Source of the DNA: Naganishia liquefaciens
Taxonomy: Eukaryota > Basidiomycota > Tremellomycetes > Filobasidiales > Filobasidiaceae
Assembly (NCBI GenBank): GCA_013423385.1
Contig: BLZA01000005.1
Span: forward strand, 124,001 to 188,000
Direction: 5' to 3'
DNA: 64,000 nucleotides
In this document: positions 1,260 through 52,374 of the stretch, one piece after another
Layout of the letters: every line of letters starts with the position of its first letter
How positions within the stretch are numbered: position 1 is the stretch's first letter
Position numbers and translations under genes: made by a program
The notes under the pieces: model-generated
Told to the model about the DNA's origin: nothing
Databases searched by the model: none
The model's input: the letters and a program-made list of their open reading frames with translations, nothing else

Positions 1260-2680
1260 ATGCTCGAACTCATCGTACTCGGAAGCGGTCCCTCGGGCGG
1301 TCTCCCGCAACTAGGCTGCCTCACCCGGCCATCGGACGCCCCGTACGAACGATGTCGATGCTGTGAAAGCACGCGCGAGGAGACTGCAGATGATATCGCG
1401 GCGGGAGGGCGCAAGAATCAAAGAGGAAATACATCGTGTGTTGTGCGCAAGACGTGGGATGATGGAACGCAAAGGTGTGTTTCGTAGGAAGCACGTACTG
1501 GTGGGTGGGAATTGATGTTGATCTGGGATGATCGGTGTCGCAGTTGTGTAATGATTGACTGCGGCAAGACCTTTGCGAGAGATGCATGTGAATGGTTTCC
1601 GAAGCATGGATTGAGGCGTATCGATGGTGAGTTGCGGGATCTGCAAAAGAAGGGACGACTGATCGTGGGACGCTCGAACAGCCGTTATTCTGAGCCATGA
1701 TCACGCTGATGGTATGTCTATCCACGTATCTCTACACATTCAATTCACACTCGTTCGAGCAGCGATTCTCGGACTCGATGACCTCCGTATGTTCACGCGA
1801 CCCAAGCTGAAGGAGGGGAATGATGCCATTCAAGATCACCTCGACGTGTACTGCGAGGCCAAGACGTTGGCGGTAATAAAAGAGCGTTTCCCGTAAGTCT
1901 TGTTCAGCTGCCAGACTTCGAGCCCACTCATGGCCTATTTGCAGGTACCTCGTGTCATTTGATGCCGTTCGTGGCTTCACAAGCGTTGCCGATATGGTAT
2001 TTCATGTCATTGAACCGGGTAGGCAACATGTGATTGCGGGAATTGTGAGTGAATAGCGATGTCGACCGCAACTTTCTCTATTGATCTTATTGATCTTGAT
2101 TCTACTTCAGAAAATCCTTCCGCTCGAAGTGCAACATGGATTTAGCGTGGTGTCGGCAAGCGACTCACTCGGGGTCGACCTGAACGTTGGCCCAACCAGA
2201 ACGGAGCCATACATGACCCTCGCCTTTCTCATCGAAGACGACATCCTATGGATGACCGACGCTAGCATCATCCCAAGGAAGACCTGGGATATCTTGCATC
2301 ACGGCCTCGACAAAGAGATCAAGCATCCGCGAAGACGGCTATCGCTTGCCTTCATCGATCTATCCGAGATCTATCCTCTTCGTGCGCATCTGTCCGTTCG
2401 AACGTTCCTCGAAGTCGTTGAAAAATTGTTCGCGGTTCGTACGTACGCTATCGGGATGAATCATACGCTTTGTCATGGCGAGATCGAGGCTCTCGGCGAG
2501 GAAGTTCAGGGCATCCGACAGAAGGGCAGGGAGGACGCATTCCTGGATCAGGTATTGCGGGGTGAAGAGAAGATTGAAGATGCACCGGTTTGGAGCAGCT
2601 TGAAGCAGAAAGTGCCGTGGTTTCGACCGTGCTATGACGGGATGGCTGTTCGAGTCGAGGAACAACAACAGTCAGAGTAG
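1260..2680 (+). CDS. metallo-beta-lactamase-fold hydrolase, PhnP-like (paralogue 1)
   Basis: Six exons fit: 1260-1474, 1544-1626, 1682-1711, 1763-1892, 1945-2044 and 2111-2680, giving 375 residues with all phases consistent. The protein opens with a beta strand and glycine turn (LIVLGSGPSGG). It has a CRCC motif near residue 36, a conserved GRKNQRGN segment, then VMIDCGKTF and the metal-binding HDHAD motif, which is encoded by a 30-nt exon. NHTLCHGE near the C-terminus also matches the paralogue. The fold and motifs are those of metallo-beta-lactamase phosphodiesterases such as bacterial PhnP and its fungal relatives; the substrate is unknown. The start was chosen because MLELIVLGSGPS aligns with the N-terminus of the paralogue at 18292-19809. 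Compared with that copy it lacks a Pro/Thr-rich insert after the last intron. Confidence 0.85.
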
Positions 2681-2948
2681 AGCAGAGCGAGGGTATAAGG
2701 GATAGGTATAGATAGCCAGAATATCACGTCCGCGCTCGAGATTACGCGGGGAGCACTACGCGTTTTCCCAGCTGACGCGCCTGCAGCGACGAGGGGTATT
2801 GTCTCACCTGGCTGCCATAGCCACCGTCTTCATGTCGTCGCTGCTGCAATTCCCTGGTTTCTCGCCCGGTCTCGCGCTCGTCCTGTCCTATACACTACAC
2901 GCCGCACTCGAGCAACCCTATGAGCGATCCAGAGGCACTGTGGGACCG

Positions 2949-5900
2949 ATGACGACCACACGGCTCCGCAGAACGCGCTCTCGCGGCTTCATCGCCGGCT
3001 CCTCTGCGAAACCCTCGCCCGTGAAGATGCCGGTGGGGAGACCTCGGCGGAGGCTGGGCAAGGGGCTCGGACTTGAGCCGCCGGCGAAGCGTGCCAAGGT
3101 TGAGCCGGCGTCGGTCTCGCCGAAAAAGTTGCGGTCGCGCATGTCGAGTCGGTTACCGTCAGAGGATGAGCAGATGGATGTTGAGGAGGACGACGAGGAC
3201 GATGGAGACTATGACCGCACGGTCACCATGGACCGGGAGACACTCTCCCCACTCAAATCCAGCAATGTCGCAAATCGTGCACGAAGACTACGGAGAACGA
3301 CGCGATTGCATTCTGGGAACGACGTGAACAAGGGAAAGGGCAGGGCTCGCAAGCTGGCGACGTCCGCCGAGGTGGTAAATTTCGGGACGAGTCCGCGCAA
3401 GAGGAAGCGTACCGCAGCGGAAAGCGAGGAGGAAATGACGGGAACGATCACGAGCGAGTATGAGAGTATTGACGGGGATGAGTCGGAGACGGATTTTATT
3501 GATGAAGGTGCAAATCCGGCGTGTCCAAAGACTGTCGAGACCCTCGCTAACTTTGCATTTAGATGACGAGAACTTTTTGCACAAAGCATCTTCTGCTGCG
3601 CTGGATCGTCTCCGGAAAGCCGAGCTTGCGCGCTTGTGGAAGGTTGCCGGACTTAAGGTTGATCTCGAGTCTGACACTGAGGCTTCGGAGAATGAAGACC
3701 TCGAGAACATGATGACCAAAGAACAGCTCATCAAGGGTATCCTGGATGCGGTAAGTCAACTTCTGGCCAGAATGTTCCCCCTCTAACGCCCCTGGCAGCG
3801 TAAGGTAGATCCGAACTCCCCAAGCCATTCCGCCGGAAGACGTATAGCGAGACTGCCATCGGCAACGCGTATAATATCAGCCGCAACGTCAGCGACCCAT
3901 TCCAGTGTCTCTGCTTCTGGCGAAACGTCGTCATCCGAGCACAACCACCATTACAGGAAAGGGCGCGGAGATGAACGGAAACCCAGATTTTACGTTGAGA
4001 TTCCGACGAAAAATCAACGTTCAATGAAAGAGAGACCACGTCGTGCCTCACATCAATCGTCGGCTGCTTCATCCGTCGGCAAGACAATCAGCAAAACAAC
4101 GAGAACACGTGTTAAGGAAGACAAGCTGGAAGAGCCGCGCGCTCGGACAAGATCCTTGGATGGCCTGGAAGACGGCGATCAGGAAAGCTCCGTTGGACTC
4201 GCAGACGATGAGCGCGTGGAAGCGAGTGATGAAGAGTTAGAGACAGCTTCACGATCGCGGATGCGCACGAGGCGTTCGAGTCAAGCCATCCCGGCAACCG
4301 TGCATGCCTTGCGGTCTCGTGCGAGAGGGATGAAGGAGAGTTTCAACTCGAATCAGACGCCAATGCGTAAGGGAAAGGCTAAAGCGGCAGCACGGGGCAA
4401 AGAGGAAGAGAATGATGTGCCGATGGAAGAGACTGAGTCATCGGAGCAGGAGGATTCAGATGGCATGTCCCGTGAATTCAAAAAGAAACCCCAATCTGAC
4501 ATTTGCACAGATCCGACTCCACGCCTACGCACCAATACTGCCCCGGCACTTTCTCCGACACTGAAACAAGCCAATATGCGCACCCGCCAAACGCGTCGTC
4601 AAAGTCTGCTTTCATCGGTATCTTCGACCAAATCCTTCGAATTATCGAGCTTGCCGTCGCAGTGCGCCTCGTTGTCGGACGAGAAAGAGGGGTCACAAGC
4701 GAGCCCGGGATCGGTTTCCGCTAGTGGCCAGCGACATAGAACACGTGGACAGGCGAGGCAGCATGCCCTCGAGAATCAGCTCGAGCATATGGATATCACA
4801 GACGAAGAGGCTGCCGAGCCGGCAGACAATGTCGATCAGGAGATGCAGGATGCAGAGTTCCAGTCAGAGATGGCCCCCGAGGCAGAGTCAGGGATGCAGG
4901 ACGACGATGATGATGGAGACGATGAGGCAGAGGAGTTCGGTAAGTGGCTTGTTGCGCCTGCACTGCTCTGACTCATGCTTCAATTCAGAGCATGAATTGA
5001 CCGACGCGACTCATACCACGCTCAGTCGTCTGCGGAAAGCGCGGCTGGTGGAAATGTGTGCTGCCAGAGAATTGGATACGGAAGGGACGAAGAAGGATCT
5101 CATACAGTTCTTACTGGAATGGGTAAGTGTTGTGTAAGTAATAGAATCCCGTGCTGATCACCATAATCTTTCCGCAGCGAGACGCCACCAGTCGTGAACG
5201 CCATTCGAAATCGGTATCATCCGCGTCTACAGCCAAGCAGGACAGTCCGGAGATGACTGATATCATAGCGAGCCACAACGCTTCAAAGCTCAAGACGGTT
5301 TCCGTACCTAGACTCCTCCGGAACCACTCGACTGTTGCCGATCCCGACACGCCTCCGCTGACAACAGAGGAAAATAAGGATGCGAACGCGAACGCTATCG
5401 AGCTCGATCTGGAGGATCTCGGACTCGTCGATAAGGAAATACCAGCGTCACAGGTACAAAAAGGAGAAAGGATTGGCAGCGGAGGGTTCAAGGAGTGAGT
5501 AGCGACATCGTCTCTCCTAGCGGAATCTAATCTCGATTTCAGCGTATACATCGGCAAGCTGAGAGGCAGACACAAGGTAGCCATCTGCGAATTCCGAGAT
5601 CAGCTCAGCGAGAGTGAGTGTCAGAGTGCGTTGTAAAGAAGTCAGCTGACGTTTCTACGGTAGTGGATATCAAGGAATTGAAGCTTCTATCGGAGCTGAA
5701 TCATCCGAACATCGTTCGACTCGTATGTCTGTCCGGGAACAAAGATGAAGCTCATTCGCTGATCCCCCTGTGCTTCAGCTTGGAGTCAGCTTGCCCGACC
5801 CTTCAGCTCATGTGAAATGCATGGTCATTACTGAACTCTGTGAAAAGGGTGATTTGTTCGATTACATCGTATGTGCGGAACATTCCCCAATCAGCAATCG

Positions 5901-6636
5901 GACTAACAGTGTCTAATTGTAGCGGAGTGTCAATACTCCGCCATTTGCCAAAATCGTAAGTGCGCCGTGTCAATTCCAGGTATTCTGCTGACGTCGTTGC
6001 AGCTGGGAATGATGCTCGACATCGCTCTTGGGCTGGAATATCTGCATGAGCGGACGCCGAAAGTCATTCACCGCGATGTGAGCCTACTTCTGTGGTTGCT
6101 GCAAGGACACTCCTGACTTTCTTCCAGTGCAAATCATCCAATATCCTCATCAATAAGAAAGGCACTTGCAAAGTCGGAGACTTTGGCCTTGCACGCGTCA
6201 AAAATTCCACAAGATCAGTCATTCGGTCCTTGGTCGGCACTATCAACTGGCAAGCGCCGGAACTATGGAGCCCTAAGCCAAGATACGATTACAAGGTTGA
6301 CGTCTTCAGCTGCGCTATGGTCTATTGGGAAATGCTGAGCGGATGGGCTACGGAGAAGAAGGAGTATCCGTGGGTTGACAAGAATCAGTTTTGGATTATC
6401 GACGCTGTCGGTACGAAGAAGCTGAGGTGAGTAGCAGTCTTTGATCGGATGAATCGTGCTCAGTTCGTTTCTCCAGGCCTCCTACCTTTGCTATCCGCAA
6501 ACGTTGGGGAACCGAAGTCGTGGAACTGCTCGAGCGGATGTGGCAGCATGATCCAGCGGATCGGCCAACAATGACGGACGTCAAGGATGATCTGCAAGCG
6601 ATTCTGGCCGAGCACAAGAAGAATCCACAAGTCTGA
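2949..6636 (+). CDS. SAP-domain protein kinase with WNK-like lysine placement
   Basis: Twelve exons (2949-3507, 3563-3750, 3799-4939, 4989-5122, 5178-5494, 5543-5613, 5664-5722, 5779-5868, 5923-5955, 6003-6077, 6128-6426, 6477-6636) sum to exactly 1,041 codons plus stop. Residues 1-760 are charged, rich in Ser, Arg, Lys and Glu, and look nuclear. Two SAP/HeH-like motifs (LRKAxL...TKxxLIxxIL) lie near 195-249 and 638-674. A tyrosine-kinase-like domain spans about 768-1035: GSGGFKDVY loop, VAIC at 792-795, alpha-C Glu near 808, HRDCKSSN at 887-894, DFG at 907-909, and a WQAPE motif. The usual VAIK lysine is Cys795, while Lys779 sits in the glycine loop, the arrangement known from WNK kinases. 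SAP motifs normally bind DNA, so a chromatin-associated kinase is inferred. An internal start giving only the kinase is possible, but the continuous phases favour one protein. Confidence 0.85.
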
Positions 6637-6785
6637 TTTGCTTGGTCGGGCAAAGATACTGTATAACGAACTTGGGTGTAGCGAAAATGATCAGCATACC
6701 GTTGTATCGCTAAACGACAATGTAGCCATTGAATGAATGTATTCATGACTCGTATATTTTCGGACATGATGCGTTCACAGCAGAA

Positions 6786-7299
6786 TCATGACTGTTGGTC
6801 TTTGGCCAGAATCTCCTCAACTCGAGAGACCTTGCCCGAGTTTCCGCCCTTGCTTATCTCCTTGTCCACCCGAGTTCCGATTCGGATATCCGTCTGCACA
6901 GGGGAATTAGCCCTGAGCCTCACGGCCATTCGAGAGACTTACCGCAATCCGGGGAGTACCCATTGCGTGAACGGCCTCGTGACATGCTTTGATGGCGTCC
7001 ATGACTTGTGACCACGGGCCCTCGACGTTGGTTCCTGCAAACGGGACATCGTGAGTAGGCGTCCAGGCGGAAGCATGCCGGGACGTACCATATCCATGGA
7101 GCTGTTTGCGCAGAGACCTCATCAGCTGGTCGCCCTGGCCGTTTTGAGTCGCACTCACATGGTATTCCAGACCAGACTTCTCCAAGACTCGCTGACATTC
7201 TGCGATCTGAGGTCCGACACTCGGCGTCTCCAGTCCCATGGGGATGAGGCAGAAGTCTGCTACTGCGTAGATCTCGCCGGACGTGTTGTTTGCCGACAT
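6786..7299 (-). CDS. ECM15: thiamine-binding-fold protein, UPF0045/Ecm15 family
   Basis: Four exons (7159-7299, 7089-7101, 6943-7034, 6786-6893) join in phase to give 117 residues. The second exon is only 13 nt. The N-terminus VADFCLIPMG, the central GTNVEGPWSQVMDAI and the C-terminal TDIRIGTRVDK match the small YqgV/MTH1187/Ecm15 family, whose members form ferredoxin-like homotetramers and have been reported to bind thiamine. The length is typical for the family. The cellular role in fungi is not settled; yeast Ecm15 was linked to cell wall phenotypes. The gene is convergent with the kinase gene, with about 150 bp between stops. Confidence 0.88.
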
Positions 7300-7718
7300 T
7301 TTCGTATACTAGGGGAGAGAAGTTTTCGACGGGGATCAGAGCCGATAAGCAAGTCGGATTACGAGCGGCTCTCGAAATATGAAAGAGCCCAAGGCAATGT
7401 TCAACGCCGTGATGACGATCGCCAGGCGACGGGTTTCGGCTCAGGTTTCGGACCGCGATTACAAGCCGTGACCTCCACCTGCTTGCGACTACCTGGTGGC
7501 ATTCGCAACTACAACGTCAGTACTGAAATGAGTGCAGGCGTTGCACGCCACGAAGCGACCGTTCTGTAACTGCACAACGGAGATGTTCACATACACAGGT
7601 CAGACTTCCAGCTTGATCATAAGGGAAAAAGCAAAACAATGCCAGATAGGCTGTTCCTCGGTGACTAGCTGAGAGCGAAGCAGGGGTGTGGCTAGGTTCT
7701 ACCAGAAGCAAAAACAAA
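7300..7718. other. intergenic, no gene seen
   Basis: This stretch holds the 5' region of the Ecm15-like gene (minus strand) and the 3' flank of the tRNA. ORFs here are short and unsupported. No repeat was noticed. Confidence 0.5.
7704..7713 (-). terminator. polymerase III T-run terminator of tRNA-Val
   Basis: The plus strand has a run of five A just outside the 3' end of the tRNA, reading as TTTTT on the transcribed minus strand. This is the usual Pol III stop signal and supports the tRNA call. Confidence 0.6.
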
Positions 7719-8769: not shown

Positions 8770-11220
8770 TTAATTGACTTTGAGTCCGGTCGCACTGGTC
8801 TTTCCCTCACGGCTCTGGGGCATAGCAAGCCGGCTGTCGGTCCTGACGCTATCTTTAAAGCTCTCGACACTTGACGGGAAGTGCGCTTGAGGCGGATAGA
8901 GAATGCTCGAGCGTCGCTGACACAATTCGGCGAAAAAGAGATTGGGCGGACGACCATCGGTAAATTGAAAGATACTGTCATCGTCGTAATTCATGACGAC
9001 CAGTTTCCGATTCAAGGATGCGTCCGAGCTGGTGTCCTCATTGCCTGGAGTCGTCACTAGTCGCTGGTTCCCGCGAGGCGATGGCGTATCCTCCCAGGAT
9101 ACTGAAGAGACCGATCCGCGGCGACCGTACAAGAGCGTGTCGCTCGTAAAGTTTGTGCTAGGAAGGCCGCTTACGGGTGGATCGAGGTATCTGAGGGGTG
9201 CGATACTAGCTGCCACAGAGGTTGGGCGAAAGGGCGTGGGGGAGACTGAAGGAGGAGGAGGCTGTATCGGAACCGAGCTCCAAGGCGGAGTATACCGCTC
9301 CTTTGCGGGCACTGTATGGAATGTTGACTCGAGGTAGTCCATCGGATAGGACATGAAGCTTTTCGTGTAACGCTTGGACCGATCTTTTAGATTCTGGGCG
9401 ATCCTTCTTGCTGTCTTGGTTGGCGTGATGGCGGACCCTAGTAATGTTTGGAGCTTTGACGGAGAAGCTGGTTGTGTATCGTGGGAATACGCCGGCATCG
9501 GTCGCTCAGCAGTATCATCTCTGAGACCTGTGGGCGTGTACTCTCGAGATCTTGGCACAGATCCCGGCGCGGTGACAGACTTCCGCTTGTCCTTGTCAAC
9601 TGGATCCATCAACAATACCTCGGCCCACTTCCTACTTTCCTCCTTCCGAGCCCGGCGCTGTTTAGTCACGAACGTGCTCGCCAACAGCAGCAAAGCGAGC
9701 CCAACAAGACTGGCAAAGACAAGAATGGGAATCAGAACTCGTCGCTGGATTCCGCCCCGCTGAGCATTTTCCAGAGCAGGATCAGATTCGCCGGTGGCTG
9801 TCGAAGCTGGAGCCAACAGAGTGATGTTCCATCTGGCTTTAGAGATAGCAAAGGTTTCTGGATCAGTATGTCGGAGCGTAAGCTGGATCAAGGTCTGATT
9901 GGCCACGTCCTCTGGCACAGTACCAGCAATGCCAAGAGATGACAAGTGCAGATCCATCCAGGAAGGACCTTCCTCAATGACGAGCTGTTCCGCCAATGTC
10001 GTGCTTGCTTTATGCGTCGTCGTATTCTGCTGTAAGGGAACGGCAAATTCCTGTCCGATAATCAGATTGAAATCGTCAAGCCATCCAGCAGTGGCCGAAT
10101 ATCTGAAAAAGGATGGCTGGAAGTGTAGATCTAGCGGGATTTCGAGGCGTTCTCCGGTCGTGGCGGTCAGGCTAACCAGTATCTCACGTTGCGTTCGTGA
10201 GAGGACCAGTAGACGCGGACCGACGCCTTCTGCTGGTTCCAGAGATGCCCAGTCAGCGGCGACACGGACGCTATCGATCAGCTCCTCTGTAAACGGCTCT
10301 GCGTCGAAAAATGTACCTCGCACGCCGCCAAATCCTCCAAAGGTCAAAGGCTGTTCGATCCTTGTCCCACCGGTCGTCAAGTTCAATGTCAAAGCTCCCG
10401 GTAGCATGATTGGCAGGAGGTACTCGAAAGAATGAGATGCAACGATCAAGGTGAAACTTTGCGCTGCTTGAATTGCCTCGTCAGGCGGAGGTAGCGACGC
10501 GATCATTCGAAGTCTGTATCGATCCTGGAATCCCACTGCTCCATCTCTGTCGGTGCACGGCGTAAATCCATTAAGCGTCAAGAATTCCGCACTCCATTCC
10601 ATCCATTCTGGGAGATCGGATCCGTCCTGTAAGCGTAGACTGTAAGTGATCAGAAACCTTTTATCCGCATATTGAGACTCTGCGGGAATGGAGAAGATCG
10701 GGTGAAAGCCAATGCTGAAAGACCAACATGGCGGAACACGTACGCCAGGGGCATAGTTTGACTTGGCTAGAAAGGGGAAAGCAGAAGCGATCACGGTTTT
10801 TACTTGATCTTCGACGTCGGGTACCGTTCCTTCTCTTGATGCTGACAGATCAGAGATGCTTGTGAGCTGCCATGCGAGTGGGTTGACAAGTGCCCATGTG
10901 TCTGCTGATGCTGATGGCTCCTGTCGACGTTCAATGTCTCCGGCTGATTTATAAGACGCAAGCGGGGAATCTTTCCCAACTCGAGCCTCTCGTTCTTCCA
11001 GCACAGGATCCACCGTAGATCCCTCCTCTTTCATACCCAATGATGCACTATTGCTCGGCATCTGGTCCAGCAAAAGTATATCCAAACTTGCTGATGGGAA
11101 GGACTCGCCGTTGCCGACCTTCGGGTAAGGTTGAAGGTCGCGTCGCCGGTCCAATGAAGCTGTATAATGTTGATTTGATGACGAAAAAAGAGGGATGGCC
11201 GAGGGTATTTGGCTGTACAA
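8770..11220 (-). CDS. Axl2-like cadherin-fold transmembrane polarity protein; 5' end unresolved
   Basis: A single open frame of about 816 codons ends at 8770. The extracellular part has dystroglycan-type cadherin-like segments (for example VPPCWSFSIGF followed by LPEWMEW and a SFTLIVASHSFEY strand). One hydrophobic transmembrane stretch (VLIPILVFASLVGLALLLLA) lies roughly two-thirds along, followed by a basic cytoplasmic tail rich in Ser/Pro/Thr. This layout matches yeast Axl2, a plasma-membrane landmark for axial budding and septin organisation. The 11220 boundary is only where the open frame begins (a TTG codon): a stop precedes it and no signal peptide is visible. The first in-frame ATG is near 11061. 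One or more 5' exons carrying the signal peptide are therefore expected between about 11.22 and 11.6 kb. The gene is divergent from mL59. Confidence 0.75.
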   Translation of the reverse strand: MYSQIPSAIPLFSSSNQHYTASLDRRRDLQPYPKVGNGESFPSASLDILLLDQMPSNSASLGMKEEGSTVDPVLEEREARVGKDSPLASYKSAGDIERRQEPSASADTWALVNPLAWQLTSISDLSASREGTVPDVEDQVKTVIASAFPFLAKSNYAPGVRVPPCWSFSIGFHPIFSIPAESQYADKRFLITYSLRLQDGSDLPEWMEWSAEFLTLNGFTPCTDRDGAVGFQDRYRLRMIASLPPPDEAIQAAQSFTLIVASHSFEYLLPIMLPGALTLNLTTGGTRIEQPLTFGGFGGVRGTFFDAEPFTEELIDSVRVAADWASLEPAEGVGPRLLVLSRTQREILVSLTATTGERLEIPLDLHFQPSFFRYSATAGWLDDFNLIIGQEFAVPLQQNTTTHKASTTLAEQLVIEEGPSWMDLHLSSLGIAGTVPEDVANQTLIQLTLRHTDPETFAISKARWNITLLAPASTATGESDPALENAQRGGIQRRVLIPILVFASLVGLALLLLASTFVTKQRRARKEESRKWAEVLLMDPVDKDKRKSVTAPGSVPRSREYTPTGLRDDTAERPMPAYSHDTQPASPSKLQTLLGSAITPTKTARRIAQNLKDRSKRYTKSFMSYPMDYLESTFHTVPAKERYTPPWSSVPIQPPPPSVSPTPFRPTSVAASIAPLRYLDPPVSGLPSTNFTSDTLLYGRRGSVSSVSWEDTPSPRGNQRLVTTPGNEDTSSDASLNRKLVVMNYDDDSIFQFTDGRPPNLFFAELCQRRSSILYPPQAHFPSSVESFKDSVRTDSRLAMPQSREGKTSATGLKVN

Positions 11221-11629
11221 TGCGAGTCAACACTGATGGAGGACGTGGATGCGCTATCTGCAAGGGGTTCTGCTGATCAGCTCTCCCAATTGATGCGGAT
11301 GCTTGATGCGCAAACTTACGATATGCGGGTTGGAACGCCTCCTTCGATTCTTGAGGATGATTCAGAGCAATAATGGTATCGGTTGTGTGTGCAAGAAGGC
11401 AAGAATCTGTCTGCAAGGCGCATAGTGGCGAAGATTGATGAGGTTGATCACCTGGTGTTTGGCGACCTTCTATCATCAAGGGGTCGTGTCTCAGAATTAG
11501 GTAAGCCGGTCGCGCTTTTTGATGTGCGAGGGCGTTGCTTAGGTCAGGATCGCTCCTGCATGAAGAGTCGTATAGCATCCTGTCGTCACTGCTGTCGATA
11601 TCATAGTTCAACACCCCAACACCAACAAG

Positions 11630-25705: not shown

Positions 25706-28700
25706 ATGCCACGCGATACCGCCTTCGCAGAGGCGCTTTCCAAGATCTCCTCGGACAAGATCAAGGATCGCGCCGAGGGCATGGCCAGCCTGCGTACCAT
25801 CTTCCAGTCTAATACGAGCGTTGAAAATCTGAGCGCCGTGGCTGAGAATGCTGGCTGGCTACAGACGTTCCAGGTGTTGTTTGGAGTGGTCAAGATGGAA
25901 CGTGCGGCGAGCTTGAAAAAGGGGAAGGGTCCGGCGGGGAGCTCGAGCAGTGGTAAGTCGCGTTGAAAGCCACAGTAGATACAATCAATTGATGTAAAGC
26001 AGCCGCCGAAACGAGGCTGTCGAACGCAATGAACCTCGTCCGATGGCTCGTAGAGCGATCTCTGACACATCTAAACAAAAAAGTTATCAACGCGCTCTTC
26101 AGTCACCTCACGCAGACGATCATCACCTCGGACGGCACCTTGATCCGCAATGCGATGGACTATATCAAAGCCCTCAAGATGATCATGTCCTATCCGCCGC
26201 ATCTCGAGCATCTCGGACAGGGATCATGGGAATGTCTCATGAGCATCTGCTGGGATGCTGCGCTTGGGCAGCGGGTCGAATATAGCAAGGAGGAATGGAC
26301 GGGTGACCTGGAACCTGAATCTTCAACCGAAGCATCCGAGAGCGAAGAGGAACAGGAATTTGCGACTCCCTCTGTGGGGACCCAAAAGCGCAAATACGCA
26401 TCCACGATGATGTGCACACTGGATCGCACTAGACGGAGCGAACGCGCAGGTCCAAGGCTGACGACGGAGACGACGGAATTGATCAGCATCATTCCGATTC
26501 TTCTCTCCACACCAAACGCTCCGATCCTGCCCCCACCGCACCTGCCGGAGGAGGACCGAGAATCCGATCAGCCCTTTGCACGTGCGGGGATCCGGATTCT
26601 CAGACGCACAATCAAGTTTCTTCGCGCACAACCCGCAGAGACTGCAGCTCATCGATCCATTCTGAGTGCGCTAACCATCGTCCTCGCCGAATTGGAGGTC
26701 AACGCCGTTCAAGTCATGATCGAGTTTGCGCACAAGATCCTTGCGCTGCTTTTGCCCCTATGGCATACAAAACTCAAAGATCAAGTCATCCTTGCGCTTC
26801 GCATCATTCTGCCGTTCCTCCCCATCTCACAATTCATCTGTGATGCCGAACCAGAGGAGAAACATATCGAACGGGCTGTTTTTAGCGATCTGTTGGCGTT
26901 GAGAGATGCTATCTCGCGTTCTGCACCTGGCAAGAGATCCCATATCCTCGAGCTACCGTACCTCTCCCTCGGTTTGGTTTCGGATCCCGCAAGTTCGGCT
27001 GCGCGTCCGATGCAGACGCCCTTGATCTCTGCGACGCCAGACTTTACCGATCCGATGATTATGAGCTGGGCTACTCTCGAACTATTGGCCGACAGCCTGG
27101 TATTACTGCATAATCATCATGAAGCGACTTCCCTCCGCTCGACAACGCCAAGCGCGACCGGAAGCAATAAGCGACAGCGGATCGAAGAGCCCGTGACCGA
27201 GCTGCTACGAGTGATGTCTTCGGCGCGGTACGTCGAGCACAGGCTGTCGGCGCTTCAGACGATGTATTTCTTCATTTTGCGCCATTGGGGACAGGTGCAT
27301 GATCGTCTGCAGGTTGTTATCAGGGAAACGCTGCAGCATCTTATGGTCGATCCCGTACCGGAAGTTCAACAGTGGGCTGATATCGATTTGGCGGCAATCT
27401 GTCACGTACAAGTGATTGCAGATACGCCCATGATCCAGCCGAGGACCGCGGCGCAAGCGGGATCAGGCCGACAGGAATGGCTTGAAATATGGTATCTTGC
27501 CCTTCGGAAACTGATTGTCACTGCTGGCGCATCAAGTCGAAGCGCAGCACTTCTATTGCAAGTCATCCTCAAGAAACAGCTTTTGGAACCGGTTCTGATC
27601 ATCACTTCGATCGGAAAATTCCTCGAAGCCGTCAATGATCAAGGTCCCGCGGCGCCTTATGATGCCGTCTGCGATTTCATGGTGGATTGCCTGGATGTGG
27701 CAGAGCAAGATGCGCGGATGCATCGGAAGGGCTTCACGGTCAAGGTCTCTGAATGGTTCAGGACGGCTTGGTTGGCGCAGGAGAAAATGATGGTGGATGC
27801 CGGAGACCGGGCAAACTATGAAATTTGCTCGGCATGGCGGTTGATCTGTCGACTATCGGGACTTGCTGGATGCTACAATCTCGTCAATGGCGGTCGACCA
27901 TTGATTGCGAATTCACTCTTTACTAGGATGCAAGAAGAAGGACACGTGGTCGAAATTCGGGACTTCATTCTCCACGCGAAGCTGTGGCCCTCAGAGCCGG
28001 AAAAACATAATACGATTGGCAGAACGTCTGAGAGCACGAAAGCGCGCATCCGACCGTATAGCACATCTGACGCCAGAAGCCTTTCCAGACTGTTCGGGCT
28101 CAAACTCCAGCAGCTTGATACAACCGACGCCGACGCGACTAACGTCGCCCGGCTCCGCACCAAGATAGACGGCTGTGTCCTCGTTCTTCTGGTAGAGAGC
28201 GGTTTCATCGATTCGGATCCGGAACATTCGCAAACCAACTTTGAGTCGGCTTGCGACTTGCTGGAAAAAATGTTGCAGATCGCATTTCAGAAAAATTGGT
28301 CGCTGGCCGAACGTGCGAGGCTTTTCGCTGGCCTGGATGCAATGTTTCCGCAAGCTGGATCGGCATCCCAAGGCAAGCATCCTGAAGCCCTTCTTTGCGT
28401 CGCCGGACCTACCTCGGGAGTTTTATCGGTGATCATGAGCAATGCCGGTCAGAAGCAGTCCCAGGTCGAGCACGAAGCCGAGATGCGATTCTCTGAGTTT
28501 CATGTCAAACTCTGGCAGAAACCTAAGGTGAGCTTTTTGCGGTCGCCGAGATCAATGTCGCTCATCGCCTATTAGCTTAACGATATGTTTCGCTCCCGAG
28601 TTCGTGATTTCCAGCAAATTCTGCAAGGCGAAGAATTGCACATCAATAGCGACATACTGGAACCGAGCGTAGGAGAAGCGGATGACGGTTTCGATGCAAT

Positions 28701-31700
28701 CAAGGTCGACGAGGAGATCAGCGTCAACACCACACAGATCGACACCAATGTCACAGAAGCTGTTGTCTCTTCATGCCTCCGCTGTTGCTTCTTGCCAAAG
28801 TACTGTGCCAATGGCATGTCTGCTCCGATGAAGGACCGAGTCACAATGAATATACTGCTGGCGGCCGAGCCATCCGTTTTCCTTCAGCTTTGTCGTCCAA
28901 TACTCCAAAGTATACGCGTCGGCGTTTTGGAATTCCACGATGACGCTATGATGTCCATCTATCAAGTGTTACAAGAGTTCCTGGGCTCATATTCGTATTC
29001 GCGATCATCCAGGATGCGCCGAATCGCATTCGACTTTGTGGATACCATCTTGTCCCGTCTCGGTCCCTTGAACACAGACAGCTTCAATACCGGCTCGGGG
29101 GAGCTCGCATCTATTTTCCTGAATTGGCTTGGATCTAACCTCTTGCAAGGAAACCTTGTCTTTTGGGAGGAACGCATGTCAGTCATTCGACTGTTCGCGC
29201 GAATCATACACATGGATCCTGGCAACGAGTCATGGATCAAGCGAGAACAGGCACATGAAGAGACCGATGATCCCGTTATGTTTCTTTGCTCATTGGTCGG
29301 GGATACAGACGCTCGCGTACGATTCCGCTTGGCAAGCATGGTTGCGGGCCTTCTGCATTGCCTACCAAATCGGGATATCAATATGCTTTACCGCGACATT
29401 CAAGTTCATTTCCCTACTAGAGGATTTCAAGTCGAATACATCCTCAGTATCCTCATTTTTCAAGCGAACGTCTCGATTGTGAACGCTGAAGGAAGATTCA
29501 ACTCGCTTTTTCACGTCTATGATACCGCTTATACGCGCAAGTTCGCAAGCGGACACGTTCAGGTCTGCCTGCAAAGCGTAGTCGATGCCCTGAAGCTATC
29601 AGGTATTGCCGATTTATATCAGCAATATGCCGCTCGTCTGACATTGCTACAACTGCGGAATGATGCGAATCCCGAAGAATTACCGATGCACCTGTACGGA
29701 TTCACAGGTCGCAAACAATGGGCAGCCGCTGCGTTGGCGTCAGTCGGCGGCGTTGCTCTTCTCGAGAACAAGACATGGGTTTGGGAACATCTTAGCGCGA
29801 TGGTCGGCCTATCTAAGGAGGAGGGCCTTCAATACATCTTCTCGTTAACTGCCGGCAATTTTCTGGCTTTCGAATATGATGCAAGAACGCAGCGATCTGG
29901 TAATCAAGATCGGATCTCATTGACGCAAATTTTGGGAGATTTCGAGAGCAGATTGGCAGAACTAGGCGGCAAGGGGAAGTTACATATGGATCCGATCGAT
30001 ACCATAGCCTCTGTGGTCACCATGCCGGGAGACGCCAGCACCACAGAGGAAATCTCGGCGTTACTACGCGCACAAACAGATGGTGCAGACAAATCTCGCG
30101 TGTTCGATCACATCTTTCCCGCCGAGTCTCACCGACCGCTCGAGACAGTGTTGGTACCCGTGGCCAGCGCCAAAGCCTGCATTCGTGTGATGCAGTGGAT
30201 TTTAGCCAAGGGTCACGACACCCCCGACAAGATCATCTACAACGTTACCATGCAAATAATGGGGAAACTGCACACTAAAATTCTGGTTAACGAGAGGCTG
30301 CGGCTGGTCCGTAATCTGGCATACTTTATCGCATATCATCATAGGGTATTCGTGGATTGCCAAGTTTTGGGATTCGTGCTTCTCCGAGTCGGTTGCGTCT
30401 TGGCTCAACATGTCGACTTGGTTCCGATGGCAGCCAACTTGATCACATGGATTCTTCCACATGTGAAAACCATCAAGGAAGCAGAAGGGGAAATGGTTTC
30501 GATAATCGCAAAGCTTTCCGCAGTAGCGCTGAAATGGCAGAACTCGACCTCGATCGATGGAATGCCCGGCATACAGCAAGCTGGAGAGCGTATCTTCGCC
30601 GGCCTGGAACACTTTATCGACATGCTTTGGAAAAGCTCGTCAGGGAATAGTCGGAATCGGATCTTTCTGCCGCTTCTTCCAATATGGCCACGAGCGTTGT
30701 CCAAAGCGCCTCAACAACGTTTGCGCGAGATGACTCGAGCGGAGCTTCTCGACACTGCCCAAAACCCCGCCATCCATTCTCAAATCTTCTCCTTGACTCT
30801 TCAACTGGCAAGCAAATCTGAAGCCTTGACGATCGAGGAAATCGATACATTTTCTTCCCGTGTGTTCTGGCATCTGAAAGACTCTCTGTCTAGCGGAGTC
30901 CAGCCTAGCGCCGAGGAGCTCTCAGCCTTCCTCGAAGTCTGCTACTCCTTTGGCGGGCGGGTCCGCTTGATCGATTCTGAAGCGTACTCTACCTTGCGGA
31001 CCAGGTCCACGCTTGCGAGCGCTCACAAGGGCAAAGCCGATGCAACGGAATCTATGACCGAGATCCTCTTCGCTATGTTCGAAAGGTTGAACAGCAGCGA
31101 TTTGGGTACTCTCCATCGGGCTTACGACACATTGTGCATCATTGGAGCCAGACTGAGGAGTCGCATTTCTAGTGCCAAGTTGCCGACTTTGTTAAAGCAT
31201 GAGATGGATCTTCAAAGAGCCCATGCTCCCCTACAGAAGTCAAGCCAGAGGACACTTTTCGACGTCATGAAGCTCGACCCTGCAGCGGACATCAGTCTCG
31301 CTCTGCTTACGGACACTGACAGCTGGGCCTCGATATTTGCTTCTGCAGCTTGCGTAGAGCTTGCTCGTCGAGATGACTTGCTCATCAAGGCGGCCTCTTT
31401 ATTCGAACAAGATCGCCGTTTGTCGCGTCAGCTCTTGCCTCAACTGGTACATCTCATCCTTGACAAAGAGGCAGTCGAACAAGCAGGCCAACAAGGAGAA
31501 GTCTGCCTGGCACTCTCCGGCTACGTACATCGCGTCTTGCAGACTCCGGAAATTCCTCTCGCTACCAAAACGGTCATTCTCGAAATCATATTATATCTTC
31601 GAAAACAAAGTCGTCCTGGGTCTTACAGTCATCTGGACAACGACTATTGGCTGGATCTGGATTTCTCGCTCATAGCAAAGGCTGCTCTAGATTGCAAGAT

Positions 31701-34700
31701 GTTCGCGACCGCTCTACTTTACTGGGAGCTCTACGTTGATCTTGACAGCAAGCCGGATGCTGAAAACAAACAAGCCAATACTCTAAACGGTCACCCAGTC
31801 GGCAGAGTTCATGATGAGCAAGATTTCCAGGTATGCATAATGGTTTCAATTTGGCCTTGTCTAACACTTCTCGCATTCCACAGTTGCTTTACGATATCTA
31901 CAATAACATTGACGAACCCGATGGCTTTTATGGCATACCGTTGGAAAGCAATGTCAAACAATCCCTTCTACAACGTTTTCAACACGAGAGCAATTGGTCT
32001 CTGGCTTTCAAGTACTACGGGGCAGAGTTGGAAGCTCGGGGACAATTTCCTCAGCATCTTCCTCGACTGACGCGATCTTTACAATCCTTTGGCATGGACC
32101 GACTGGCATTGCTATTATTCCAATCTGGGGAGAACGCGAGTCAGCTTGATGAATCCCTCCGTCTCCCTTACGACCTTGCATGGCGCACGCAAAGCTGGGA
32201 TTTACCCGAATCGGCCTTCTTGCCGGACGCATCAGATCGATCAATTTATACAGCTCTTCGCACAATGCATCGATCTCGGGATCTGGCAGAACTGCAACGG
32301 GTCGTGGAGGACATCGAGCGCGAAGAAATCGATTCTGTGAAGGCCTTTCCCTTTGAAGACGTGCATGGATCAAGAAAGAAGATGCGGGAGCTCTTGTCGC
32401 TACGGGAGATCAAGCGATGGAGTTTCGATTACCTGCCCATGCTCAGTTGCATAAATGGGTCAACAACCGAGCATCAGTTGATTATGGAGATACCCGAGCG
32501 TCTTGAGTGAGCAATATGGTGTGTTGAAGTTGGTCTGTGACTGATGTAGTCGCGCTAGACCCGAAATGATCGAGCAGATACTCTCTGTGCGATTGTCCTT
32601 GATCAGATCAGCAAAATCTCACGAGGAATGGCAACTTGGGGACATGCTTGCAGAACGGGGCAGAGTCTTGCTTCAGCTTGAACGCCAGTGTCTTCGGCAA
32701 CTAGGTGACATCGCTCGACAACGGAAAAATCTCGACGCTGCTATCAGGATCCTGGCGGAACAGCAGAGTTTGACAGCTAGTGATGCTGCAGACCATGTCG
32801 GCGAGTTTGCTGAGGTCTTGTGGATGCAGGGCGACCATGCGCTGGCCATTGACCAACTCAAGGATACCCTGGGCGTTTCTCGTCAATCTCTGTCACAGGG
32901 AAAGCGATCAAGCCAGGAAGTTATCAGCCCTATCACGCAAAGTAAACTGTTATCGCGAGTGGTAAGTCTATAAGAGATCGAAATCGAATCTCCATCCCGA
33001 TCTGAAGAACTTCTTTCGCAGGGACAATGGATGACTGAGGCAAAGCAAGCTCGGCCAGAATACATTTATGACGCATACTTCATCAAAGCAAATGCATTGA
33101 CGGAAGTCCCAGCAGCAAAACCTTTCCGTGAAGATCGTGCACTCATATACACTCGATTCGCTGGCTTTGCCGATCAGGAATATTCGCGCCTCCTACAGCT
33201 ATCTGACCTCGAGCAACGTCATCTTGTCCAGGAGCATCTAGCGGTCGACTCTTCGGAAGCGGATCTACCCCCTTCTAGCTCTCGCAGGGGTTCCGCTGCC
33301 CCGTCGGCAAGGAGATCCCAATCTACTCAGCTCGGACAGCTGGAAGGGCAATTCGCTTTCACTGAGTTTGAAAAGATCAAGAGAAAGTACCTACAGTATG
33401 CCATCAACATGTACGCCCGGAGCATGCAATACAGCGACAAGTACGACGACTCCATACATCGGATGTGTGCTCTCTGGCTGGAGAATTCTTCCGACGACAC
33501 CCTCAACGATGCGATCGGACACAACCTTCGCAGGATTCCGACGTCGAAATTCGCATTTCTTGCCTCTCAGCTGACTGCTCGACTCGACGCTGAAGATGTC
33601 AAGAGCAAATTCCAGCCTACACTCGATGCGTTACTCAAGCGCCTCTGCGAAGATCATCCTTTCCACATCATGTATCAGGTTATCACATTGGCCCGACCGG
33701 TTCAGTTGAGTAACAAGGTGCTCAATTCTGCCAGACAAGGGAAGACTCCGCGTGGAGTCAACGGAAGAGAACTCGCTGCTTCCAATCTCCTCGATCAGAT
33801 TCGGAGCATTGCCAGAAGGACAGCTCAAGTGAGCGACATGGAGCGATTTGCGAGCGCCGCCGTAGAGTGGTGTAATGTCCCTGCAACCAGGAGCAAGAAA
33901 GAGTTTTCCGTACCAGCCAACGCACAACTTGCAACCATACACGATCTTTGCATCCCAGTCCCCACTCAAGAGTTGCCATTCGACAAGTCCGGCGACTACA
34001 GTCCTTTAAATCAAGGCGGTCCTGCATTCATTCAAAGTTACGAGACAAAGTTCACGCTCGCAGGAGGCTTACACGTGCCAAAGATCATGAATTGCCTGGG
34101 TCATAACGGCAAACGTTACAAGCAGTTGGTGAGTGAATTTTTATATATGCCAAACAGGGTCAAAGTTCACAATTCTTCCGACAGTTCAAGGGGCACGATG
34201 ATCTTCGCCAAGATTCTGTTATGGAACAAGTCTTTACGCTAGTGAACACTCTGTTACAGCGCGACGAGGCTACGGCCTCAAGGGAATTACGCTTCAAGAC
34301 GTATATCGTGCTTCCTCTTGCAACCGAGACAGGTATCATTGAGTTTGTGCCCGACTCGATTGGTGTCGGAGAATGGTTGAACCCAGCTCATACCCGGTAA
34401 GCTCTCAATTGATGTCTCTCGCGGCCGAGTGTATTGATCGGTAAATATAGTTACCGTCCCAATGATCTTCACCCGCAGCAGTTTCGGAATGCGATGAAGG
34501 AATTGCAGGACCCTCCGCACCCGAAGCGACCAGCGCCAGCCTCTGAGCTCATAAGGGCATTTAAGGATATGCGCAAACAGTTTAAACCCGTTATGCGACA
34601 CTTCTTCACGGACATGAGCAACGACCCTATCGGCTGGTATGCAATGCGCCTCAAGTACGCTCGCTCTGTCGCCGTCGGGAGCATGGTGGGGCATCTTGTG

Positions 34701-49405: not shown

Positions 49406-52374
49406 ATGTCCGCCTCCCCCGCCAAGTCATCTGGTGAATGGGTGCGTTCGTTGTGGGGATCGACTGCCTGCCTGCCTGCGCGCATCACGGCTGACCCCTG
49501 GATGATCCCTCTCGCAGCACGAATACAAGGCCCCCGACGGACGAACGTATTGGTCGCATTCCGTGACCAAGCAGTCCCGATGGGACAAGCCCGATGACTT
49601 GAAGACGCCCTTCGAGGTACGTTGTTCTCTTTCTCGCAGCAGCGGCCTCTGAGTATGTCCGCCAACATCCCATTTTTCCCCCCCCCCCCCCCCCTTCTCT
49701 AGAGAGCGATGGCAAAGACCGCGTGGAAGCAGTATACGTCCAAGGATAGGCCATACTACGTCAACAGCGTCACAAGGGAAACCGTCGTAAGTCTGCTGTA
49801 CACCGCCCACGAATCGTCCTCGTCTCGTTCGGTTGCACATTCGCACGCGCTCACTCGTGCCTGTCCGACCGATCTAGTGGGAACTCCCAAAGGAGCTTAA
49901 AGAGCTCAAGCGGACAGTCGAGGAAGATGAAGCCGAGGCCAAGAGGCGCGCCGAGGCAGGTGAAGAGGAATCCGAGGTCGGTGACGGGTACGCCTTCTCG
50001 GTCCCACGCAGACCCGCGCCTTCTCCAACACGTTTTCCCGGCCCTTTTTACAGCTCTACGAAACGAATCACAGATCGTACAGACAACGACGACGACAACA
50101 CCCCTTCCCAAGCTCTCACGCGACACGATCCTTTCGCCGCGCACGCCCCGACAGGACGCGACCGTTCCCCCTCGCCCGCCCTCTCAAGCATCGCATCACA
50201 CGACGACGACCAAGACCTCGGCCCTGAACCGATCATTCCGCCGGGAGGAATCGCCAACACGATCGAAGCGGAAAAGGCGTTTGTCTACCTGCTCAGGAAA
50301 TTCCGCGTCGATGAGTCGTGGACGTGGGACGTGACGATTCGAAAGATTATCGTGGATCCGCTGTACAAGTCGCTCAAGACGTTGGCCGAGCGAAAGGCCG
50401 TGTGGCAAAAAGTGAGTAGTCGGTGCCCGCTTTCCAGGAATTTGGTGAGTTCGCGCTCATCAACCTCACGCTCCGTGCACAGTACATTGCCGACCTCGTC
50501 GCCAACGCCGAAGCCGCCAGGCAAGCCAAAATCGCCCGCCTGCGGCCGCACTTTACAAAATTGTTCAAGCAGCACCGGGACCGAATCAAGTATTACTCGA
50601 CGTTTCGAACGGCCGAAAAACTGTTTGAGCATGATCGAGTGTGGATGTCGCTCGAGAGGGCAGAGGATCGGAGGACGTTGTTTGAAGAGTATGTGCAGGA
50701 ACTCAAGACGGCAAAGCAGGTGCGTACCGAGGGGATTCGACCGGTATGGAATTCGCATCTCACCACCCGCCTCCCTTTTTTACCCTCGGTAGAACGCCGA
50801 AATAGCGATGCGACAGCGCAACTTGATGGTGATGAAAAACCTCATCCGGCAACTGCCCATCACCGTCTCCACCCGATGGCGCGACGCACGAAACATGATC
50901 ATCGAGTCGCCGCAATTCAAGGCCGACAAGTCCTTGCAGGCCATCGAAGACGTGGATATTCTCGACATTTACGACGACTATTCCACGCTCCTCATCCGCG
51001 AGCATTCCGAAAACATGCGCAAGTTGAAATCGGAAAAACAACGACGGGCACGCAAGGCACGGGATGCGTTTCGTGAATTACTCGCCGGCATGGAACGCGC
51101 CGGTCAGCTCACATCCGCCACGAAATGGAAAGACTTGCTCCCGCTCATTGCCAATGAACCCGCGTACGACGCCCTCCTCGGCATGCCCGGGTCCACGCCG
51201 CTCGACTTGTTCCGTGATGTCGTGGATGATATCACCGAGGCCGTCGATGAGGCCATCAGGCGGGTCCTCGGCGCGGCGGAGCAGGCCGGGCGGTCGATCG
51301 AGGTCGGAATGACGCGCGACGAGTTTGATCGGTTTGTCGAGGAGCTCAAGTTGACAAGCCTGATCGAGCCCAAGCACGTGCAGGACGTGTACGAAGTTGT
51401 GAGTCGGCATCGTCGGTATCCGTTAACCCTCGATTCGGGTTCCCTGACCTCGCTGGTACAGCTGCAATCGCGCTTGGAGCGAGAAGCCGCCGACAAGAAA
51501 CGACGGGCGGAACGCAAGAGACGGCATTTGATTGATGATCTGCGGTATGGAATGAAAAAGGCCGAGCCTCCCATCGATCTCGAGGGGACGTATGAAGCGG
51601 TAAGCTGCACGCAGACGAAAGGCGATGAATCCCAGTCATGGCTGACTGCCTCCCTTCAGGCGATTCCCGCAATGGAAAGACTGCGAGAGTTCAAGGAACT
51701 CGATGACGAGGCACGAAGGGAAGCCTTTGAAAAGTTTGTTCGACGACAAAAGGTACGCTCACGTGTGTATTCGATCCATCTCCTGTCGGAGCTCATGCGG
51801 TTGTGTGCATGATCAGGAAAAAATCCGCGACCGTGCCATCTTCCGGGACCGCGAACGCGAGCGAGATGCCGCCAACTCGGACGCCGACGGATCCGTCGCC
51901 GGAGGCTACCGATCCAAGTCCCACCGCCGCTCACCTTCACCCGCGGGCTCCGATCGACGTGGCGGCGGCGGCAGCGGCGGCGACAAGCGCTCGTCTAGGC
52001 ACGACAAGGACCGCGCCGATCGTGACCGGGACGCGACAACCGAGCACCGTTCGCGGGACAAGGACCGCGCGCGGGATAAGCGGTACCGGGATGATCGGTA
52101 CGACGATGAGCGCGAGGGCGAGCGACGGTCGAGCAAAGATGAGTCTCGGTCGCGACGACGGGGCGAAGATGATGACGAGGCGGCCGAGGGGGAAAAGCAT
52201 GTTGCCAAGGTATGTTTTGCACGTCTCGTTGTCTTCAACGCGGTCTGACACATATTTCAGAAACCTCGCTTGGAGGATGACGGTGCCAAGGTCTCTGATG
52301 CTGATACGGTCAAGGTAGCCGATGGTGAAGAGCCCGCTCAAAAGGATGAGGAAGGGGAAATTACTGCGTCGTAA
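49406..52374 (+). CDS. PRP40: Prp40, U1 snRNP-associated WW/FF-domain splicing factor
   Basis: Starts at the ATG at 49406 ([12 protein letters not shown]). Two WW domains are split over the first exons: [17 protein letters not shown]...SRWDKP and [15 protein letters not shown]...WELP. A charged linker precedes a series of FF domains (AFQEFGEF... for the second, then [25 protein letters not shown] and KWKDLLPLI with AYDALLG). The C-terminus is a long Arg/Asp/Ser-rich tail ([18 protein letters not shown]) ending GEITAS. Prp40 bridges the 5' splice site and branch point through its WW domains and contacts the RNA polymerase II tail. A run of 17 C (49678-49694) sits at the 3' end of the intron between the WW domains. 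Confidence 0.92.

Follow-up and report, generated by a model that had tools for sequence, protein, structure and literature searches.

A basidiomycete family of SAP-kinases without the beta-3 lysine carries a WNK-like lysine in its glycine-rich loop

Results

We analyzed a 64,000-nucleotide stretch of the genome of the basidiomycete Naganishia liquefaciens (contig BLZA01000005.1, positions 124,001 to 188,000 of the forward strand; hereafter the window), which harbors at 2949..6636 (+) a gene for a protein kinase with SAP-like motifs, here called the SAP-kinase. The lysine of the third beta strand (beta-3), with which almost all protein kinases bind adenosine triphosphate (ATP), is replaced in this protein, and a lysine is found in the glycine-rich loop, at the place where WNK ('with no lysine') kinases carry theirs. 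The gene model is a prediction from genomic DNA (2000-7600 was read), in which 12 predicted exons (2949-3507, 3563-3750, 3799-4939, 4989-5122, 5178-5494, 5543-5613, 5664-5722, 5779-5868, 5923-5955, 6003-6077, 6128-6426 and 6477-6636) are spliced at GT..AG sites across 11 introns of 47-56 nucleotides each, resulting in a single frame of 1041 amino acids. Although the model is a prediction, the loop and beta-3 columns of the protein align in all 156 homologues described below. The top homologue, P0001 from Naganishia vaughanmartiniae (Agaricomycotina, Tremellomycetes), shares 90% identity over residues 755-1041. A second copy was not found in the genome of N. liquefaciens, where the kinase query retrieved the exons of the gene itself and otherwise fragments of different kinases that were 25-56% identical.

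The kinase domain (residues 768-1028, 5457..6594; all features of the gene lie on the + strand) matched PF07714 and PF00069 in Pfam (9.9e-44 and 1.4e-43, respectively). The glycine-rich loop reads GSGGFKDVY (residues 774-782, 5475..5549, with an intron inside codon 780), and its third-glycine place is taken by Lys779 (5490..5492), the putative relocated ATP lysine, in the same column as the loop lysine of WNKs. At the beta-3 lysine place, the motif VAIC (792-795, 5577..5588) carries Cys795 (codon 5586-5588). Both replacements had been pointed out in an earlier reading of the sequence alone (the sequence-only reading), and they persisted with the same numbering after splicing. That reading had also taken the remaining catalytic motifs to be intact, and all of them were indeed in place: the alpha-C Glu808 (5675..5677), the catalytic loop HRDCKSSN (887-894, with HRDCK at 887-891; 6069..6142, intron-split), DFG (907-909, 6179..6187), which is DLG in WNKs, and APE (932-934, 6254-6262). 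Right after beta-3 lies the basic residue Arg798 (5595..5597). Ser919 and Ser923 of the activation loop (6215..6229) aligned with the serine pair of WNK1, and W(X)6RP (1011-1019, 6541..6567) represents the motif core common to tyrosine kinases (TK) and tyrosine kinase-like (TKL) kinases.

We then asked how widely the two replacements are conserved. Three homologue searches yielded 156 family proteins, all of which were kept in a MAFFT alignment; these rows are not independent observations. The first search contributed the best 120 of 2465 matches, with proteins of about 573-1822 amino acids. All 26 matches of the second search, with proteins from about 1313 amino acids, were considered and gave 4 new members, while 120 of the 158 matches of the third, with proteins from about 1165 amino acids, gave 32 more. 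The weakest of all family rows, P0124 from the second search, had an E value of 1e-80. The next rows of that search, at about 30% identity, had 3e-16; in the third search, plant proteins came next (2e-58, 32% identity).

Residue 779 was lysine in 156/156 proteins, and residue 795 was Ser in 76, Ala in 71, Cys in 9 and Lys in none. The suggestion that the swap is a family trait was thus upheld for the loop lysine and for the loss of the beta-3 lysine, and homologues with a beta-3 lysine and no loop lysine were sought and not found among the 156. The cysteine itself is a minority state: the pair of changes occupies the same columns as in WNKs, but the exact WNK residue at beta-3 was limited to two rows of Naganishia type and to 7 of the 10 from Pucciniomycotina. 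The remaining Pucciniomycotina rows had Ser (2) or Ala (1), and the loop lysine was retained in all 10. Ustilaginomycotina-type rows (n = 20, 13 of them named) combined loop Lys with beta-3 Ala throughout, and the other 126 rows, whose named genera are presumably Agaricomycotina, had loop Lys in every case and Ser (74), Ala (50) or Cys (2) at beta-3. For these assignments three representatives were looked up taxonomically, and the remaining rows without names were placed by similarity. The kinase domain of N. liquefaciens is 57% identical to those of both the smut protein P0123 and Rhodosporidiobolus P0164, and the swap is therefore an ancient feature that the family has conserved. It is a family trait across three subphyla of Basidiomycota, fixed in the 156 members examined.

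Conservation extended to much of the active site. Gly774, Ser775, Gly776, Gly777, Asp780, Val781, Ala793 and Arg798 were invariant, as were His887, Arg888, Asp889, Lys891, Asn894, Asp907, Phe908 and Gly909 (each 156/156). Between the start of the domain and alpha-C, the only invariant basic residues were Lys769, Lys779 and Arg798. Glu808 was Glu in all 153 readable proteins, the three gaps being P0032-P0034. These three are Cryptococcus deuterogattii gene models that lack the alpha-C Glu stretch and are perhaps annotation errors; the models of P0121, P0124 and P0172 include domains of unrelated enzymes (oxidoreductase-type, AMP-ligase-type and fructose-bisphosphatase) and may be merged with neighboring genes. 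The APE motif is not universal, its Pro being replaced by Val in 18/156 and by Ala in 2/156.

As a control, we used the 102 non-family kinases among the matches, in 75 of which loop and beta-3 could be read by pattern. Twelve of 12 WNKs had loop Lys with beta-3 Cys. A lysine at the third-glycine place was present in 0 of the 63 kinases that belong neither to WNK nor to the family (57 Gly, 4 Ser, 2 Ala). Only this tally was used; the corresponding beta-3 tally (55 Lys of 63) was dropped because P0142, P0179, P0192 and P0193 were misread, and in fact have ..AIK, ..AVK or ..ALK.

To get insights into the geometry of the site, we considered the register of the two strands. In PKA, Val57 of beta-2 and Ala70 of beta-3 jointly cover the adenine, and two positions, the third Gly (two before this Val) and the catalytic Lys (two after this Ala), are cross-strand neighbors that face the nucleotide. 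Lys779 lies two before Val781 and residue 795 two after Ala793, both of which are invariant; by residue parity, given regular pairing, the two side chains would lie on one face. As cross-strand neighbors facing ATP, they would place the moved lysine within possible reach of the phosphates and of Glu808. For the short orthologue P0008, the AlphaFold model starts beta-2 (339-346) with Lys339 and has Ser354 within beta-3 (349-356) and Glu367 within alpha-C (362-373); its block 331-340 has an average predicted local distance difference test score (pLDDT) of 80. The P0001 model has the same strand order, with the loop Lys immediately before beta-2. Taken together, the strand order in the two models and the cross-strand register favor an orientation of Lys779 toward the ATP cleft.

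We next compared the family with other kinases. The nearest sequences in PDB were led by CTR1, an EGFR construct, TNNI3K, DLK, B-Raf and ITK, and no WNK was found among the best 60 of 2602. Fold comparisons returned B-Raf, ITK and BTK, and also Abl, Src and others; the absence of WNK from the 50 rows shown in either comparison is uninformative by itself. The W(X)6RP motif (described in PMC3937382) was highly conserved, with W1011 and R1018 each in 155/156 and P1019 in 154/156 proteins, and W930 of W-x-APE was found in 154/156; of the flanks in CW(X)6RPXF, the preceding Cys and the following Phe are mostly Met in the family. PF12202, which lies C-terminal in WNK rows, was absent from the 42 members scanned with Pfam and from the N. 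liquefaciens protein, the kinase domain of which stops at residue 1028 of 1041.

Phylogenetic trees were built from three samplings. For the first, 16 outgroup rows were dropped from a set of 78 rows and both families were thinned, and 38 of the resulting 44 rows had their trait columns masked with X before tree building, the other six being unreadable by pattern. The second left out six further rows, and the third 13 rows of the outgroup as well as two from the genome of N. liquefaciens; the trait columns of both were masked with the same kind of pattern. A tree of the set of 78 rows likewise kept the SAP-kinase family and WNK apart. In all three, the SAP-kinase family and WNK fell on opposite sides of a split with support of 93/90, 96/96 and 100/97, respectively, and the family grouped with TK, TKL and receptor-like kinases. 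The family together with CTR1, EGFR, TYK2, P0191 and P0217 as a single clade gave p = 0.211 in the approximately unbiased (AU) test (first sampling). The expectation that the domain is tyrosine kinase-like rather than WNK is thus borne out alike by PDB neighbors, fold matches, W(X)6RP and trees.

The protein had been thought to contain two SAP-like motifs. SAP motif 2 (residues 638-676, 5012..5183, intron-split) has profile support. PF02037 matched residues 641-669 of the full-length protein with 17.8 bits, below the cut-off of 23.9, and the segment alone with 23.9 bits, which equals the cut-off. Segments of this motif matched PF02037 at E values up to 1 in 17/18 cases, and 24 of 42 full-length members had a SAP match at E values up to 0.1. 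The profile of the motif retrieved from PDB the SAP-type chain of the nuclear protein Hcc-1 (9.4e-05) and THO1 (0.031). SAP-like motif 1 (residues 193-254, 3580..3813, intron-split) is SAP-like by its recurrent pattern (L..LRK.EL.RL...AG...TK..L...I..AR) and by helix prediction only. Its matches in PDB, a thermosome subunit (0.11) and a ubiquitin-hydrolase fusion (0.85), were both weak, and neither is a SAP domain. In the P0001 model, the blocks of motif 2 (651-690) have pLDDT values of 95-97, and the helices of motif 1 are partly above 90. A nuclear-import-like basic motif, PAKRAKVE (residues 45-52, 3081..3104), and a basic cluster, RKRKR (150-154, 3396..3410), are putative targeting elements as judged from their letters. 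The presence of motif 2 and of these two basic motifs suggests a nuclear, nucleic-acid-associated kinase.

Discussion

In our reading, the SAP-kinase is a TKL kinase that is probably both active and nuclear and that evolved the WNK active-site swap independently. In this family without a beta-3 lysine, we consider it likely that the loop lysine makes the contacts with the ATP phosphates and the alpha-C Glu as in WNK, that the enzyme is active, and that it has a role at chromatin, predicted from the SAP motif. Lys779 would take over the contacts with the phosphates and Glu808, and the small residue at beta-3 (Ser, Ala or Cys) would make room for it. Recruitment of the kinase to nuclear DNA or RNA-protein complexes would depend on the SAP motif together with the basic motifs, and phosphorylation of Ser919 and Ser923 would switch it on.

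Several observations weigh against this reading. A joint clade of SAP-kinases and WNKs gave AU p values of 0.119, 0.028 and 0.133, and was rejected in only one of the three samplings; this sampling was run after the value of 0.119 had been seen, with ten own-genome kinases added and six rows removed. One WNK had the fifth-highest pairwise score among non-family rows. The loop tip has a pLDDT below 50 in the P0001 model, and the invariant Arg798 could be the actual substitute for the lysine. The relations of Lys779 to the phosphates and to Glu808 are deduced from alignments and models. The nuclear role is based on motifs, and the profile of motif 1 retrieved no SAP structure from PDB.

By the usual criterion, a kinase without the VAIK lysine is a pseudokinase, and TKL pseudokinases are said to predominate in plants and fungi (PMC10211241). 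The protein would then be dead for phosphotransfer and act as a nuclear scaffold or a nucleotide-gated switch, with the loop lysine kept for another reason. We regard this as unlikely. In a dead kinase the remaining catalytic residues should have eroded, whereas here they are intact, and the kinase is therefore probably not dead: the other residues checked are invariant in the family, Ser919 and Ser923 are retained in 155/155 readable proteins, and the sole residue lost is offset by a lysine where WNK and POMK carry theirs. A role of Arg798 in holding the phosphates or Glu808, with Lys779 merely stiffening the loop, would be in line with its invariance and with the cleft arginines modeled in some bacterial pseudokinase families (PMC12599244). 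Strict alternation in beta-3 would, however, put residue 798 on the face opposite to 795, and its position in the P0008 model is just past the strand. Lys779 is invariant to the same degree, at the loop place that WNK and POMK use, and we give very little credence to the arginine.

A true relationship to WNK, with the swap inherited from a common ancestor and the TKL-like appearance being secondary, would account for the alteration of the same two columns, for the one member state (Cys) that is identical, and for the similar spacing of the activation-loop serines in the pairwise alignment to WNK1. The two AU tests that failed to reject a joint clade and the fifth place of a WNK in pairwise score also speak for it. 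The separation in the trees argues in the opposite direction, as do DFG in place of DLG, the lack of PF12202 in the 42 members scanned and the missing WNKs among the best PDB sequences. In addition, the family has W(X)6RP and W-x-APE, whereas the aligned WNK1 is without the W and RP and reads FMAPE. Common descent therefore appears improbable to us, and an origin separate from that of WNK is the most likely one for the lysine swap. The convergence that the sequence-only reading had proposed is favored by tree topology and not proven, since the AU test was significant in a single sampling.

If independent, the SAP-kinase is apparently the third family, after WNK and POMK, in which the ATP lysine has moved to the loop or beta-2. 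The WNK1 residue at beta-3 is presumably Cys250. WNK1 works with Lys233 at the loop place (PMC4718504). Both WNKs and SAP-kinases are without the beta-3 lysine and have the loop lysine at the third-glycine place (F-K-x-V-Y), a small residue at beta-3, the alpha-C Glu, HRD and an activation-loop serine pair. They differ in the TK/TKL-type motifs and tree position of the SAP-kinases, their DFG and their beta-3 residue, which is mostly Ser or Ala, and also in their SAP motifs and long disordered N-terminus, besides the lack of PF12202. In POMK (SgK196), the missing beta-3 lysine is likewise supplied from beta-2 or the glycine-rich loop (PMC10211241, PMC5142810, PMC12599244), but POMK phosphorylates a sugar and is also reported to be without the alpha-C Glu and the aspartates of HRD and DFG (PMC10211241), all of which the SAP-kinase family has. 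The double change that would correspond to Gly at 779 and Lys at 795 improved POMK (PMC10211241).

TKL kinases such as CTR1, RAF, TNNI3K and DLK provide the best sequence and fold matches and share W(X)6RP and W-x-APE. In contrast to the SAP-kinase, CTR1 has the canonical beta-3 lysine and third Gly in the letters of its PDB match. RAF, TNNI3K and DLK likewise have both. The fungal FslK kinases also form a lineage near TK/TKL (PMC3937382); they differ by their reported distribution, since they are lacking in Ustilaginomycotina, in Pucciniomycotina and in both Cryptococcus species that were examined, taxa in which the SAP-kinase family occurs, and lysine relocation is unmentioned for FslK in the available portion of that paper. 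Some orthologues have been named TKL or TKL-ccin, so the family is already known as kinases; the TKL-ccin name, borne by members in Coprinopsis and Lyophyllum, says nothing on the lysine.

The serine pair of the family, four residues apart ahead of G-T, has the alignment and spacing of the pair in WNK1, where the second member beside Ser382 is presumably Ser378. Activation of WNK1 involves phosphorylation of Ser382, and chloride bound at Leu369 and Leu371 of DLG blocks autophosphorylation; a change of the Leu369 counterpart in WNK4 results in constitutive activity (PMC5346417). In the SAP-kinase family, the place of Leu369 is held by Phe908 and that of Leu371 by Leu910 (each 156/156). We predict that the family escapes chloride inhibition, because Phe908 of DFG replaces the WNK leucine, and WNK-type chloride control of the SAP-kinase is unlikely as judged from these residues. 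More speculatively, the move of the lysine to beta-2 may, as in WNK, have opened a back pocket for a regulatory ion or small molecule other than chloride at DLG, such that the WNK site was rebuilt from a TKL kinase early in Basidiomycota to give mushrooms, smuts and yeasts a chromatin-bound sensor kinase; we think the chances of this are small.

Another candidate for regulation is the linker between SAP motif 2 and the kinase domain, which contains the motif PRLLRNHSTVADPDTP (residues 718-733, 5307..5354). Its residues P718, L720, T732 and P733 are conserved in 152, 150, 151 and 147 of 156 proteins, respectively, and it is possibly a proline-directed phosphorylation site. Ser818 is a phosphorylation site in a TKL-ccin kinase of Lentinula (PMC7751435), which we could not establish as an orthologue and therefore did not use as evidence. 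If the protein is an orthologue, Ser818 may fall near the PRLLRNHSTVADPDTP linker, by comparison with the numbering of P0057. Similarly, a protein of Laccaria that is most similar to a TKL-ccin kinase from Coprinopsis was recovered in a transcriptional-activator trap in yeast and listed as an unconventional activator with nuclear localization (PMC5604158). The authors of that study expect false positives, and this protein, not being shown to be orthologous, was also not used as evidence.

Neither the relocation of the lysine nor the architecture of the SAP-kinase was found described in our literature search among openly licensed papers. Of two papers on fungal kinomes, one contains neither 'SAP domain' nor 'lysine' (PMC2838846), and the other does not contain 'SAP' (PMC5052723). 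An independent origin would imply that the replacement of the beta-3 lysine by one at the third-glycine place is a repeatable evolutionary move between cross-strand neighbors. The cases known previously are WNK and POMK, the latter with a far more altered active site, while the SAP-kinase keeps the other catalytic parts. The family could thus serve as a test system, devoid of the chloride motif, for the regulatory effect of the swap. It also calls for caution in kinome pipelines, where such proteins might be filed as pseudokinases, and it draws attention to a kinase, predicted to be nuclear, that mushrooms and basidiomycete yeasts share and whose function we did not find described in our search.

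Additional observations

Other open frames were seen elsewhere in the window. At 25993-32070 (+), two long frames of 860 and 1164 amino acids are adjacent; the first starts with a TAN domain (Pfam 3.4e-20), which we take to be a domain of Tel1/ATM kinases, the second had no Pfam match, and the pair is possibly one Tel1 gene. On the - strand, an 818-amino-acid frame at 8770-11226 gave a weak match to the Ig-like He_PIG domain (1.5e-4, below the cut-off) and has a transmembrane stretch by eye; it perhaps encodes an Axl2-type protein. A frame of 339 amino acids at 50793-51812 (+) contains an FF domain (Pfam 9.1e-18), and possibly encodes a Prp40/TCERG1-like factor for splicing or transcription.

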